A DNA stretch of 64,000 bases from Anaerolineae bacterium. Its GTDB lineage: Bacteria; Chloroflexota; Anaerolineae; Aggregatilineales; Phototrophicaceae. The position numbers were made by a program, and so were the translations under genes. Positions 13,845 to 45,189 of the stretch are shown one piece after another. The notes beneath the pieces were generated by a model. That model saw only the letters and a program-made list of their open reading frames with translations. It ran no database searches and was not told the origin of the DNA. Positions within the stretch are counted from its first letter, which is position 1; every line of letters starts with the position of its first letter. The stretch lies in assembly GCA_023382675.1 (NCBI GenBank), contig JAHDWN010000001.1, positions 164,345 through 228,344 on the forward strand. The letters run 5' to 3'.

Positions 13845-14330
13845 CTAGCTTTCCTGAATAACACTGAGGATCGTGCGCAGGGCGGCGTCAGCACTTTGCG
13901 ATTTAATCGCCTCGCGATCACCACTCCAGAGATGCCGCTCGACGTGCTGTAAGCCCGTGCGTGTAACGACGCTCAGATATGTCAGTCCCACGGGTTTGTC
14001 GATGCTGCCACCGGATGGGCCAGCAATGCCCGTCACCGAGACGGCGACATCAGCATTAAAGCGATTCAACGCACCTCGCGCCATTTCCTCAGCGGTTTCT
14101 GCGCTGACAGCACCGTAAGTCTCCAGTGTCAATAACTGCACACCCAGCAGGGCCATCTTCGCCTCATTCGCATAGGCAACGATGCCACCCAGTACATACG
14201 ATGAGCTACCGGGCACATTGGTGAGACGATGCATGACTAGCCCGCCTGTGCAAGACTCTGCGGAACATACTTTGAGGCCACGCGCAAGCAAAGATTCGCC
14301 GACTTGCACCTCCAGATATGTTTCAGCCAT
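13845..14330 (-). CDS. pncC: Nicotinamide-nucleotide amidohydrolase, CinA C-terminal family
   Basis: 161 residues, the length of the stand-alone CinA C-terminal domain. PncC deamidates nicotinamide mononucleotide to nicotinate mononucleotide, recycling NAD breakdown products. Family motifs are intact: CSAESCTGG near residue 22, YVLGGIVAYANEAK near 45, AVSAETAEEMA, and VTGIAGPSGGS with VGLTYLSV near 100-120. The ATG start agrees with family length. The gene is a single unit on the minus strand, convergent with the VOC gene. Confidence 0.95.
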   Translation of the reverse strand: MAETYLEVQVGESLLARGLKVCSAESCTGGLVMHRLTNVPGSSSYVLGGIVAYANEAKMALLGVQLLTLETYGAVSAETAEEMARGALNRFNADVAVSVTGIAGPSGGSIDKPVGLTYLSVVTRTGLQHVERHLWSGDREAIKSQSADAALRTILSVIQES

Positions 14331-14397: not shown

Positions 14398-14403
14398 TAT
14401 AAT
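14398..14403 (+). promoter_or_regulatory. -10 element for the lipoprotein gene
   Basis: An exact TATAAT lies 46 bp before the GTG start. No convincing -35 hexamer is at standard spacing. The GGGATAAT-type boxes begin directly downstream, so they would fall in the initial transcribed region. Confidence 0.5.
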
Positions 14404-14444
14404 GTGGGATAATAGATGTTGATATTGGGATAATGAGGGATATT
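14404..14444 (+). repeat. Three phased GGGAT boxes before the lipoprotein gene
   Basis: Units GTGGGATAAT (14404), TTGGGATAAT (14425) and GAGGGATATT (14435) have their GGGAT cores 21 and 10 bp apart, close to whole helical turns. They resemble the TTGGGATAT units at 43988 and the inverted pair at 36924. A DNA-binding protein array is inferred. Confidence 0.5.
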
Positions 14445-35784: not shown

Positions 35785-36909
35785 TCACGGAATTGGCCGG
35801 TAGTTGAGCATCTCGTTGATGGCCTTCAGCAGCCGGCGCAGCTCGAGTTCGATGTCCTCGGTAATGTCGTCCTGAATCACCGCTTCACGGAGCAGATCGC
35901 GCGCTTCGCGAATGCTGTCTTCGCCCTGACGCAACCGGCTGAGTCCGGCACGCAACTGTGTGCGCGCATCCCGGCTGACTGGATTGGTATAGCGACCGGG
36001 GAAATCCCAGCCATGCAGGGTTGCCACCTCCTGCAACTGCTGAATGAACTCGTCGATATTGTCGAACTGCATGGCTGCCCCGCGCTGGAGCAAACCGCGA
36101 AGCGCTGAGCTGAGAGTCGGCTCGACACCGAAATCGAGCGATGTGACATCCTGGTAGCGCATTTCAACATCCGTCGCGTTGCCGGGCTGAGGCCGCAGTG
36201 TCGTCTTTTGCGGGGATAGGCCGGTGAAAATCGAATACAGAATGCCCACGCACAGATTATGAATGTCCATCTGGAAATAGCGGCTGTTCTGGCGGTCGCC
36301 GGAGTCAAGCTGCCGTGAGCTGTTGAGATCGATGATGCGCAGATGCACACCATCCCAGTAGACATGCTCCAGCTTGTGATCGAGATAGACAATGCCCTGG
36401 CGATGCGCCAGCCGCAAGGTTTCGCCAAATTGAAGCGCCAGCGCTAGCCCTTCTTCGGTTGGCAGACGCATTCGCATCTCGACCCGATCCGGACGCATTA
36501 AATAAAAGAGATTTATCGTTCGAGGGAGATTTTCGAGCGCCAGATATGGACGCCAGCCATATTCGGCAAAGGTATGAAGATTGCGCGCAAAAGCCGAGAT
36601 ATCGCGCCCGAATGTTTCAATCTCGCCGCTGGTGGGCGCTTCATGCGCCGAAGCAACATAGCCGCAGTCAAGCAATTCCACAACATGCGGACTGCCATCG
36701 AGGCGCGAAAGAAGCTCAGCCTCATTAGCAAAAGCGCGATACTCCCAGCGTATCTCTCCACCAGGAACCAGATGTTCGGGTCGCAACACCTTGAAAGCAA
36801 CCTCACGACCAGTGCGGAGATCGGTCGCATCAAGAACACGTGCATAATGCCCTAAAGCGAAGGTATCATTGAAGTTGGCAACCTGATAGATGTCTGCGAG
36901 ATCAGTCAT
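35785..36909 (-). CDS. Atypical Ser/Thr protein kinase-like protein
   Basis: 374 residues with a kinase-like core (about 15-290). The Lys of the VAFKVL strand and a Glu in the EYRAFANEAELL helix are present. The catalytic loop reads YLDHKLEHVYW: Asp and Lys are kept, but the HRD His/Arg and the metal-binding Asn are replaced, the latter by His. The DFG site is D-L-N. The C-terminal 90 residues are charged and helical. Activity is uncertain; it may be a weak kinase or a nucleotide-binding pseudokinase. Divergent from a PP2C phosphatase gene, with which it likely forms a regulatory pair. A TTGGGATATATC palindrome surrounds its promoter. Confidence 0.82.
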   Translation of the reverse strand: MTDLADIYQVANFNDTFALGHYARVLDATDLRTGREVAFKVLRPEHLVPGGEIRWEYRAFANEAELLSRLDGSPHVVELLDCGYVASAHEAPTSGEIETFGRDISAFARNLHTFAEYGWRPYLALENLPRTINLFYLMRPDRVEMRMRLPTEEGLALALQFGETLRLAHRQGIVYLDHKLEHVYWDGVHLRIIDLNSSRQLDSGDRQNSRYFQMDIHNLCVGILYSIFTGLSPQKTTLRPQPGNATDVEMRYQDVTSLDFGVEPTLSSALRGLLQRGAAMQFDNIDEFIQQLQEVATLHGWDFPGRYTNPVSRDARTQLRAGLSRLRQGEDSIREARDLLREAVIQDDITEDIELELRRLLKAINEMLNYRPIP

Positions 36910-36923
36910 AATCCATCCATATC

Positions 36924-36964
36924 GATATATCCCAAATTCTTGCTGTATTCTTGGGATATATCAA
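36924..36964 (-). promoter_or_regulatory. 12-bp inverted repeat bracketing the kinase-like gene promoter
   Basis: TTGGGATATATC at 36951-36962 is repeated exactly on the other strand at 36924-36935, 15 bp apart. On the minus strand TTGATA (36959-36964) and AAGAAT (36936-36941) make a promoter with 17-bp spacing, so one arm overlaps the -35 and the other lies just after the -10. This is a typical operator layout. Confidence 0.65.
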
Positions 36965-37059: not shown

Positions 37060-37095
37060 TGAGAAAGAATTACTCGTTTGGGCTGGAGTTCAGAT

Positions 37096-38274
37096 ATGCA
37101 ATTCCCTGGACGTAAACGCGGGCTACGCAGCGGTGCCCGCACCAGCGTGGGTCAAGTGCGTGAAAACAACGAAGACAGCATCCACCTGGAATCTTCTGAC
37201 GATTACGTCCTGGCTATCGTAGCAGATGGCATGGGTGGTGCCGTCGCGGGCGAAGAAGCGAGCAGGCTGGCGGTGGAGGCAATCCGCGAAAAGCTGGCCC
37301 ATTGGCCCGGCAGCGACAGTGACGCCAAGCTAAAGACCGAGCAAATTGCTGGTCAACTGCGGGCGGCGATTCAGTGGGGCAATGATTCGATTGTCCAACG
37401 GGCTACGGCGTCGCCGGAACTGCGTGGTATGGGAACCACCGTTACCCTGGCCTATGTGCGCTACTCGCAAGCTGTAATCGCACATGTTGGTGACAGCCGC
37501 GCCTATCTGGTCAGCATGAATAGCCTGCCCCGCGTCCGCCAAATCACAGACGATCACAGTTTCGTCGAGGCGCTTGTCAATTCAGGGTATTTAACCCCCG
37601 AAGAGGCGGCGGAACACCCTATGCGCAACGTGCTTTATCGTGCGTTGGGGCAGACCGAAGAACTCGACGTAGACATCTATCATACGCGCCTGAGACCCGG
37701 AGATCGCCTGGTCTTATGTTCTGACGGTTTGACGCGCCATGTCAAACCAGCCGAGATCGCCGAAAAGGTTTTGACAGAGACAGACCCCCAGAGCGCAAGC
37801 GACGTGCTGGTTGAGCTGGCAAATTCACGCGGCGGGGAGGATAACATCAGCGCCATCGTCGTGATGGTCGATGGCGAGTATCTCATGGATGAAACGCCGA
37901 TGCTGGTCAAAGCGTTTAATCCGCTGCTTCTCTTAGAGAACGCCGAAGATAAGGATGATGGCGATACGCTGCCGGTCAAGGACACGGAAGCGACTGAAAA
38001 AAGCGATCCGACACTCCAAAAAGTCGATAGTGAACAGTCGCCTTCACCGGAACGGCCAGACGAGTCCAATACCCTGCCGAACCGTGACCAGCTCGATAAG
38101 CGTGCGCGCTTGCTCCAACTTCAATGGCTCGTTGACGAGGTGCTCCTGACGCCCGATCCGCTGGACAATGTGATTACAGATCGCACGAATCTGGTCGAAG
38201 ATCACCTGGCAGCCTCACACCGAGATACAGGCGACGACGAAGACGGAAGCGACGCCAACATCCCGAAACAATAA
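37096..38274 (+). CDS. PP2C-family Ser/Thr protein phosphatase
   Basis: 392 residues. The N-terminal 250 residues are a PP2C domain with metal-binding Asp motifs in order: VRENNEDS, VADGMGGAVAGEEAS, AHVGDSRAYL, LCSDGLTRHV and GGEDNISAIVV, which removes phosphate from Ser/Thr (PrpC/Stp type). The C-terminal 140 residues are acidic, Ser/Pro-rich and then helical (LDKRARLLQLQWLVDEVLL); this tail is not part of the usual family and lacks a membrane segment. Start ATG has GGAG seven bases upstream. Divergent from the kinase-like gene, its probable functional counterpart. Confidence 0.95.
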   Translation: MQFPGRKRGLRSGARTSVGQVRENNEDSIHLESSDDYVLAIVADGMGGAVAGEEASRLAVEAIREKLAHWPGSDSDAKLKTEQIAGQLRAAIQWGNDSIVQRATASPELRGMGTTVTLAYVRYSQAVIAHVGDSRAYLVSMNSLPRVRQITDDHSFVEALVNSGYLTPEEAAEHPMRNVLYRALGQTEELDVDIYHTRLRPGDRLVLCSDGLTRHVKPAEIAEKVLTETDPQSASDVLVELANSRGGEDNISAIVVMVDGEYLMDETPMLVKAFNPLLLLENAEDKDDGDTLPVKDTEATEKSDPTLQKVDSEQSPSPERPDESNTLPNRDQLDKRARLLQLQWLVDEVLLTPDPLDNVITDRTNLVEDHLAASHRDTGDDEDGSDANIPKQ

Positions 38275-43987: not shown

Positions 43988-44017
43988 TTGGGATATGTTG
44001 GGATATGTTGGGATATA
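43988..44017. repeat. Three tandem 10-bp TTGGGATATR boxes
   Basis: TTGGGATATG, TTGGGATATG and TTGGGATATA follow one another with no gap, so each lies one helical turn from the next. The array ends 8 bp before the patB stop and is about 150 bp upstream of the secreted-protein gene. A regulator-binding array is the likely reading. Confidence 0.65.
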
Positions 44018-44025
44018 GGATCGGG

Positions 44026-45189
44026 CTATTCTCGATTCTCAAGTTGCTCCGCCATTTGTGACAAGGCTTTCATCAGCATGTCTTGAGAACAGCCGAAATT
44101 CAGGCGCACGAAACCCTGCCCGCCCGGCCCGAAAGGCACGCCATCATTGAGGCCAACTTTCGCTTGTTCGAGAAAGAAGCGCTGCGGATTCTCAAGTCCG
44201 AGGGCGCGACAATCGAGCCACGTCAGGTAAGTTCCCTCCGGGCGCGTCGCGAAGATTTGCGGCATACGTGTCTCAACGAAATCGACCACTGAGTCGCGAT
44301 TCTTCTCCAGGTGCGCGAGCAGCGCGTCCAACCAGGGCTGTCCTTCACGATATGCGGCCTCTGTCGCGACATAGCCAAAGGCATTGGGGAGAATGCCAAA
44401 GCCATGCGACACATCTTTTAAGCGCGCGCGCAGCTTTTCGTCCGGGACAATCGCGGCGGAGCAGACCAGCCCCGGCATATTAAACGTTTTGCTCGCCGCG
44501 AGCAGCGTCACGGTGCGCCGCTCAATTTCAGGTGAGAGCGACGCAATCGGAATATGCCGATATCCTGTAAACACGAGATCGGAATGGATTTCATCCGAGC
44601 AAATAAGAAGATCGTGTCGCTCGCATAGTTCGGCAATAAATTCCAGTTCGGCTCGCGTAAACACGCGCCCCACCGGGTTATGTGGATTGCAGAGCATGAG
44701 CAGCCGTGTTTGCGGCGTTATGGCCGCTGCCAGCGCCTCCCGATCAAGCTCATAGCGCAGAATATGCCCGTCGCTCACCGACACCAGACTCACATATTGG
44801 ATCGGGCGCTCGAAGTTCTGGCACGCACGCATGAACGGCGGATAGATGGGCGGCATGATCAACACCGCATCGCCGGAAGCTGTGGCGCTGTAGATGACCA
44901 GGTTCAGCCCATTCACCAAGCCTGAGAGGATTACAACCCAATCGGGATCGACCTCCCAGCCATAACGCTGTGCCATCCGTTCGGCGATGACGCCACGAAG
45001 TGACGGAGCATCGATCTGATAGCCAAATATAGGGTGATCAAGCCGGCGGCGAATGGCTTCGGTGACAGCGGGTGGCACAGCAAATTCCATATCGGCCACC
45101 CACATCGGTAGCACGTCCTCACCGTAGAGATCCCATTTGATGCTGTTTGTGCCATGACGGTCGAGATCATGTTCAAAATCGAAGTTCAC
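44026..45189 (-). CDS. patB: PLP-dependent C-S lyase, MalY/PatB type
   Basis: 387 residues, fold-type I aminotransferase. Family motifs are the N-terminal IKWDLYGEDVLPMWVADM block, HNPVGRVFT, CSDEIHSDL and the PLP lysine in LLAASKTFNMPGL. PatB/MalY enzymes cleave cystathionine or related thioethers to homocysteine, pyruvate and ammonia; some also act as regulators. Length is standard. It is transcribed after the PHP gene with 3 bp between them. Whether it acts on cystathionine here cannot be confirmed. Confidence 0.93.
   Translation of the reverse strand: MNFDFEHDLDRHGTNSIKWDLYGEDVLPMWVADMEFAVPPAVTEAIRRRLDHPIFGYQIDAPSLRGVIAERMAQRYGWEVDPDWVVILSGLVNGLNLVIYSATASGDAVLIMPPIYPPFMRACQNFERPIQYVSLVSVSDGHILRYELDREALAAAITPQTRLLMLCNPHNPVGRVFTRAELEFIAELCERHDLLICSDEIHSDLVFTGYRHIPIASLSPEIERRTVTLLAASKTFNMPGLVCSAAIVPDEKLRARLKDVSHGFGILPNAFGYVATEAAYREGQPWLDALLAHLEKNRDSVVDFVETRMPQIFATRPEGTYLTWLDCRALGLENPQRFFLEQAKVGLNDGVPFGPGGQGFVRLNFGCSQDMLMKALSQMAEQLENRE

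Follow-up and report, generated by a model that had tools for sequence, protein, structure and literature searches.

The window, a stretch of 64,000 nucleotides from the genome of an Anaerolineae bacterium, carries three gapless 10-bp boxes of the form TTGGGATATR on its forward strand (TTGGGATATG, TTGGGATATG and TTGGGATATA, as read from the window sequence), which correspond to ATATCCCAA on the reverse strand. The initial annotation had described three gapless copies lying on the same face of the DNA, which the sequence confirms, and the array is the top-scoring of the five rows that Tandem Repeats Finder gave for the window (score 58, 100% matches). It lies between an aminotransferase gene and an open reading frame for a secreted-protein-like product (Table 1); the labels "secreted" and "lipoprotein-like" are readings of the N-termini of the respective frames. 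Proteins encoded at the same place as the secreted-protein-like frame are 80% identical in G002 and 69% identical in G013, and no relative of it was found in viral contigs. Among the 13 genomes of the genus with an orthologue of the aminotransferase (own genome included), the array follows the gene in three, with three boxes in G000 and G002 and two in G013, and the aminotransferase locus of G003 has one box and a near-box.

The 8-mer TTGGGATA occurs six times in the window, as compared with 0.87 on average and at most 4 in 100 dinucleotide shuffles, and two further sites stand out. At the first, the boxes GTGGGATAA, TTGGGATAA and GAGGGATAT begin directly 3' of a TATAAT at 14398–14403; they had been described as phased, and three nearly phased boxes are indeed present, at spacings of about 21 and 10 bp rather than in a gapless row. 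The neighbouring cinA gene was found in 14 of 15 genomes of the genus, one of them without upstream DNA, and at least one box lies upstream of it in 12 of the remaining 13, at least two in 4 of 13. The second site was rightly described as a perfect inverted repeat: two boxes point outward inside a 12-bp repeat, GATATATCCCAA...TTGGGATATATC. This outward pair upstream of the kinase gene is kept in 6 of 15 genomes of the genus, in which the sequence separating and flanking the boxes has diverged. The three sites do border a secreted protein, a lipoprotein and a kinase/phosphatase pair as had been stated, on Pfam evidence for the kinase and the PP2C phosphatase and on the N-termini for the other two.

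Table 1. Box sites of the window and the genes beside them (positions in the window).
Feature	Position	Strand	Remarks
Triple box array TTGGGATATR	43988..44017	+	From the sequence and Tandem Repeats Finder; proposed cluster of three variant DnaA boxes
Secreted-protein-like ORF, 347 aa	42794..43837	-	Begins about 150 bp away from the triple array; without a Pfam family
Aminotransferase class I/II gene	44026..45189	-	Stop codon 8 bp from the triple array
Three boxes GTGGGATAA, TTGGGATAA, GAGGGATAT	14404..14443	+	In front of the lipoprotein-like ORF; repression proposed
Lipoprotein-like ORF, 277 aa	14449..15282	+	Downstream of the three boxes; no Pfam hit
cinA (PF02464)	13845..14330	-	Divergent from the lipoprotein-like ORF
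Outward box pair in 12-bp inverted repeat	36924..36962	.	Between the divergent kinase and PP2C genes
Protein kinase gene (PF00069)	35785..36909	-	Flanks the inverted boxes
PP2C phosphatase gene	37078..38274	+	Flanks the inverted boxes

Enrichment and conservation of the box

In the genome from which the window was taken, TTGGGATAW (WTATCCCAA on the other strand, hereafter the variant box) has 57 matches versus 14 for the reversed word, and further arrays lie at C9:149070, C16:83490–83530, C2:256912 and C11:31117. The intergenic enrichment that the initial annotation had anticipated is found: in 1.52 Mb from seven contigs, analysed with crude gene calls, TTGGGATA occurs 21 times in intergenic DNA compared with 3.4 expected. 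Among 560 classes of 8-mers of the same composition (mean intergenic count 3.9), it shares the top rank for intergenic occurrences and leads in phased pairs with five; four other classes have one to four such pairs, and the words of two of these four overlap in sequence with the same arrays. The most enriched intergenic 8-mer overall is GCTATAAT (32 occurrences versus 2.9 expected), probably a -10 element, and words of the CCCCTCCC type are likewise enriched in the intergenic DNA of this genome.

Apart from the window's own genome, 100 relatives were searched for phased pairs of the form TGGGATA-N2/3-TGGGATA. Such pairs were found in 51 of the 101 genomes, the reversed pattern in 5 of 101. By family, variant tandems are present in 39 of 61 genomes of the window's family (f1), 8 of 8 of f3, 2 of 8 of f8, 1 of 5 of f4 (G076) and 1 of 2 of f6 (G065), and they are absent from f7 (0/8), f2 (0/8) and f5 (0/1). 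Beside orthologues, the boxes of the window persist in part of the genus, with the counts given above. With their helical phasing, their enrichment in intergenic DNA and their retention beside some orthologues, the boxes do look like protein-binding sites. Chance or a mobile repeat, which the mere three perfect tandem copies could suggest, has a negligible probability in view of the enrichment in the window and in intergenic DNA, the phased pairs in about half of the genomes and the rank among the 560 classes, and is refuted by orthologous loci, at which the boxes are retained while the flanking DNA drifts.

Genes beside the arrays

The arrays listed in the own genome and in loci of relatives number 70; since these loci were picked for holding arrays and their neighbours are annotated in part, what follows is a description and gives no rate. 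Genes of replication recur among the neighbours, with dnaN in L157 (Pfam) and L204 (similarity) and dnaA in L202 (Pfam), L208 and L228 (similarity), and arrays lie inside ligA in L203 (Pfam), L212, L215 and L230 (similarity). At five arrays the neighbours include a histidine-kinase-like gene; arrays in the own genome and in G002 adjoin a surE-like gene and a response regulator, and one in L148 adjoins bipA. In f3, arrays separate mfd from the convergent degV; in L144–L147 they run to as many as nine exact boxes, counting both strands, and include near-perfect palindromes of the form TATCCCAC-N5-GTGGGATA that could form hairpins.

This assortment bears on the regulator of an envelope-related regulon that the initial annotation had proposed. 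Such a regulator would be in line with the genes at the three sites of the window, which are conserved in part of the genus, and with arrays beside murB-ftsQ in two relatives (L216, Pfam; L219, similarity) and beside a Mur ligase. Many of the array neighbours in relatives are, on the other hand, replication, ribosomal or assorted genes, and arrays between convergent genes or within genes such as ligA are more readily explained as DnaA boxes than by a single envelope regulon. The proposal is therefore not supported by the neighbours annotated so far, which include dnaA, dnaN, ligA, rRNA promoters and mfd-degV, and we consider it very improbable.

MraZ would bring in the same murB-ftsQ sites by another route. 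MraZ boxes are TGGGN repeats 5 nt apart, a pattern that TGGGA-N5-TGGGA-N5-TGGGA fits; against this, many of the 70 arrays have inverted pairs or spacings of 9 or 11 bp. The MraZ domain PF02381 had no match in the own genome, which is 96% complete, while the same search was positive in 7 of 14 control genomes, and MraZ boxes, to which we attach scarcely any probability, were dropped.

The promoter of 16S rRNA is an array neighbour in some relatives. In seven 16S loci with both boxes and a TTGAC match, some of the boxes being degenerate and two of the loci (L152, L153) having been chosen for holding arrays, the promoter-proximal box starts 37–39 bp 5' of TTGAC in five (L152, L153, L179, L181, L188); the distance is 49 bp in L180 and about 28 bp in L182. 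Two further rRNA promoters (L177 and L178, from G041 and G023) have one forward TTGGGATA about 75 bp upstream of TTGACA, in the orientation opposite to the usual pair. The near-fixed distance from the -35 element in five of the seven measured loci, the boxes just 3' of TATAAT at 14398 and the outward pairs between divergent genes would all suit a separate transcription factor that binds direct or inverted repeats of TGGGATA and controls dnaA, rRNA, dnaN, the kinase/phosphatase pair and other genes, perhaps as a growth or cell-cycle regulator. No DNA-binding regulator recurs among the annotated part of the array neighbours, which speaks against such a factor; we regard it as rather unlikely, and return to it below.

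Variant boxes at dnaA and residue 433 of DnaA

DnaA was found in 90 of the 101 genomes, and a DnaA with the helix-turn-helix of domain IV co-occurs with the box in the window's family, where 51 of 61 genomes gave a hit. Of these 51, 49 were examined (the exceptions being G034 and G042, whose copies are cut short by contig ends), together with 40 rows from the other families (without G084) and an outgroup made up of the best 80 of 592 matches from one scan of a genome collection, a sample shaped by that scan. The flanks of dnaA were compared over up to 900 bp on each side, the downstream part being shorter than 200 bp at many loci.

At least two variant boxes lie at dnaA in 42 of the 49 f1 genomes, versus none of the 75 outgroup loci and none of the 15 rows of the order whose DnaA has Asp at position 433. 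The seven exceptions are G041 and G010, which have little or no DNA upstream of dnaA, G020, G047 and three members of the genus g19. An unbiased count of 7-mers upstream of dnaA in f1 ranks TATCCCA first (136 versus 4.4 expected), and the first position of the box is T at a frequency of 0.53 and A at 0.45, so that the forms TTATCCCAA and ATATCCCAA are about equally common. The three exceptional genomes of g19 (G032, G048 and G052; L272, L273 and L275) form a case of their own: the variant box is absent from their dnaA loci, no clear replacement box was found there, a genome-wide excess of the box is slight or lacking (8 vs 10, 17 vs 11 and 6 vs 6), and the recognition helix of their DnaA reads FGMRSHSTAMHG.

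The canonical box TTWTCCACA is found at dnaA in none of the 49 f1 genomes, while two f1 members have TTATACACA upstream of the gene. It is present at 58 of 63 outgroup loci from outside the Chloroflexota, at 4 of 12 loci titled Chloroflexota and at 3 of the 15 Asp433 rows of the order. Because the Asp433 Chloroflexota mostly go without a canonical box at dnaA too, its absence in f1 is weaker evidence, and it is the positive fact, the variant boxes at dnaA, that carries the argument. Taken by itself, the common lack of canonical boxes at dnaA in this phylum favours a separate factor, as no new DnaA box would then be needed. In f4, f5, f6, f7 and the Chloroflexota-titled outgroup, canonical boxes are mostly missing at dnaA, f4 and f7 have canonical clusters elsewhere, and the origins of these groups may be sited away from dnaA.

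Several families of the order, including ones with Asp433, share a second conserved element upstream of dnaA, an inverted repeat ACCTTAAA-N-TTTAAGGT that lies at about -290 to -255 from dnaA in L258 and also occurs in L262, L305, L307, L296, L302 and L284; it is possibly an unwinding element or the operator of another protein. A TATCCCA box often abuts it in f1 and f3, an arrangement that a separate factor could account for. Nevertheless, no repeated box other than the ACCTTAA/TGTTAAA element stands out upstream of dnaA in f1, which argues against a separate factor.

The DnaA proteins themselves differ in domain IV, whose residues are numbered here on a Kluyvera DnaA. Of the canonical recognition residues, Arg399, His434 and Thr436 are present in all 49 f1 proteins, as is Arg407, and Asp433 is missing from all of them (0/49), its place being taken by Ser (18), Thr (9), Lys (9), Ala (6), Arg (4), Gln (2) or Asn (1). 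Among 79 outgroup rows (one of the 80 lacks the motif), position 433 is Asp in 75, His in three and Ser in one, and the single Ser433 row, L344, is itself a member of f1. The three His433 proteins come from other phyla (L376, Blastocatellia; L401, Thermoanaerobaculia; L421, Omnitrophota), and no clear case of another repeated box was seen at their dnaA loci. Within the order, every row read in f4, f5 and f6 has Asp433, as do 7 of 9 in f7 (one Asn, one unread), so that f4, f6 and f7 together have it in 13 of 15 rows. The residue is other than Asp in all rows read in f2 and f8, and likewise in f3, apart from a single unread row and an additional DnaA copy in G090 (L312), which reads GGRDHTTV, groups with Kluyvera in the tree and is possibly from a contaminant contig.

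A separate factor would leave the loss of Asp433 in 49 of 49 f1 proteins unexplained. Mapped on the tree, the losses amount to about three to four changes, and a test on phylogenetically independent pairs was not significant with the three to four pairs available. Moreover, the loss of Asp433 alone does not predict the variant box, as non-Asp rows outside f1 have two variant boxes at dnaA in just 3 of 23 cases.

Canonical tandem boxes (gap 0–30), in a search that differs in stringency from that for variant tandems, are present in three genomes of f4, two of f6, four of f7 and one of f8, together 10 of 101, nine of which thus belong to f4, f6 and f7; none were found in the 61 f1 genomes or in f2, f3 and f5, and the reversed control gave 0. 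Those of f7 are spaced 10–11 bp apart. One canonical cluster in f4 stands beside a protein (G063, G070) for which BLAST gave no homology (E 0.7 or worse) to the secreted protein of the window. The two kinds of box also meet: by eye, two f4 arrays with similar neighbour genes combine canonical with variant boxes, all oriented alike and about 20–22 bp from each other, and two f3 arrays have a canonical box in register between the other boxes. Shared arrays of this kind would be unexplained by a separate factor, although canonical boxes inside variant arrays number just 2 in 16,111 bases around the 70 arrays, a count that one of ten control words also reached. The f3 box itself is TATCCCACA, the canonical word plus one C.

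A probable lineage-specific DnaA box

Few protein-DNA pairs of bacteria are as conserved as DnaA and its box, and both off-origin clusters of DnaA boxes and lineage-specific DnaA boxes are known kinds of site. We infer from the sequence comparisons that the variant box is probably the DnaA box of this Anaerolineae lineage and the array at 43988 an off-origin cluster of such boxes. Set against the canonical TTATCCACA, which an origin predictor takes as its default (PMC10225481), WTATCCCAA differs at positions 7 and 8 and has T or A at position 1, so that TTATCCCAA has two mismatches (positions 7, 8) and the form of the window, ATATCCCAA, has three. The f1 box thus ends in CCAA and has no CACA core.

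According to a review (PMC5742627), the DnaA helix 434–451 reads the 3' half TnCACA and Arg399 reads the 5' half TTA. The Arg399 and TAT that are kept in f1, and the Asp433 that is lost together with an altered 3' half, would fit this division of box reading. We propose that a DnaA without Asp433 in the recognition helix reads WTATCCCAA, the 5' half WTAT being mostly kept because Arg399 is kept and the 3' half having changed from CCACA to CCCAA because Asp433 was lost. Head-to-tail copies 9–11 bp apart would place DnaA monomers on one face of the DNA, like the canonical f7 tandems, and DnaA may assemble cooperatively on the three boxes at 43988. This array would most likely titrate DnaA, time the transcription of a neighbour with replication, or both, and could act on the downstream gene for the secreted protein. 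Elsewhere, boxes at dnaA would serve the origin and autoregulation, those 3' of the TATAAT at 14398 repression, and those between convergent genes titration of DnaA; those at rRNA promoters could allow activation from upstream.

Several findings sit uneasily with this DnaA-box reading. Across whole f1 genomes, single TTATCCACA words show no depletion and even exceed the reversed word in some members (134 vs 47 in G019); f2 and f8 have lost Asp433 without wide use of tandem TGGGATA, while G065 and G076 carry variant tandems with an Asp-type DnaA; and a search of 62 genomes located a 16S gene in 13, of which just 5 have boxes upstream of it, one of them degenerate. Counts of single variant boxes are of little help here. 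Their excess even in the families with Asp433 arises because the reversed control of WTATCCCAM is itself depleted in some genomes (38 vs 0 in G072), and with TTATCCACA above its own control in several f1 genomes such genome-wide counts were set aside as proof.

The variant box resembles the canonical one in being an asymmetric 9-mer that clusters at dnaA, forms tandem phased copies and is scattered elsewhere in the genome. According to a review, the 9-mer DnaA boxes analysed differ by at most two positions, a maximum within which TTATCCCAA falls, and all eight 9-mer boxes of its Table 1 end in CACA (PMC4285127). The variant box departs from these in its CCAA end, in the third mismatch of the window form ATATCCCAA and in belonging to a DnaA without Asp433. 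Thermotoga maritima is likewise a lineage with a strongly different DnaA box, although its 12-mer AAACCTACCACC is longer than WTATCCCAA and of other sequence. The Caulobacter W-box TCCCCA also departs from the CACA core; it is very weakly bound by DnaA (PMC4285127), and it differs in having six bases and low affinity and in lying beside canonical-type G-boxes. With regard to position, E. coli datA and DARS2 and the DnaA-bound regions of B. subtilis likewise lie outside oriC and modulate transcription or the activity of DnaA (PMC5742627, PMC8682772, PMC4447404), though the spelling of their boxes differs from WTATCCCAA. Within the sampled part of the open-access literature, a box without a CACA end paired with the loss of Asp433 was not found, TTATCCCAA occurs with DnaA once, within an oligonucleotide list, and none of the matches listed for TTGGGATA looked related.

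A wider proposal, which we advance tentatively and hold to be somewhat less than an even prospect, is that DnaA and its box were rewritten jointly throughout f1, the loss of Asp433 having shifted DnaA genome-wide from TTATCCACA to WTATCCCAA, that f3 underwent a parallel shift to TATCCCACA, and that boxes about 38–48 bp upstream of the -35 element let DnaA act on the rRNA promoter directly, coupling ribosome synthesis to initiation of replication. If this is true, the lineage would illustrate the rewriting of an essential code across a genome, hint at a reason for which its origins could be missed, and offer natural pairs for specificity-swap experiments; it would also add clusters of DnaA boxes at rRNA promoters, at ligA and at a kinase/phosphatase pair.
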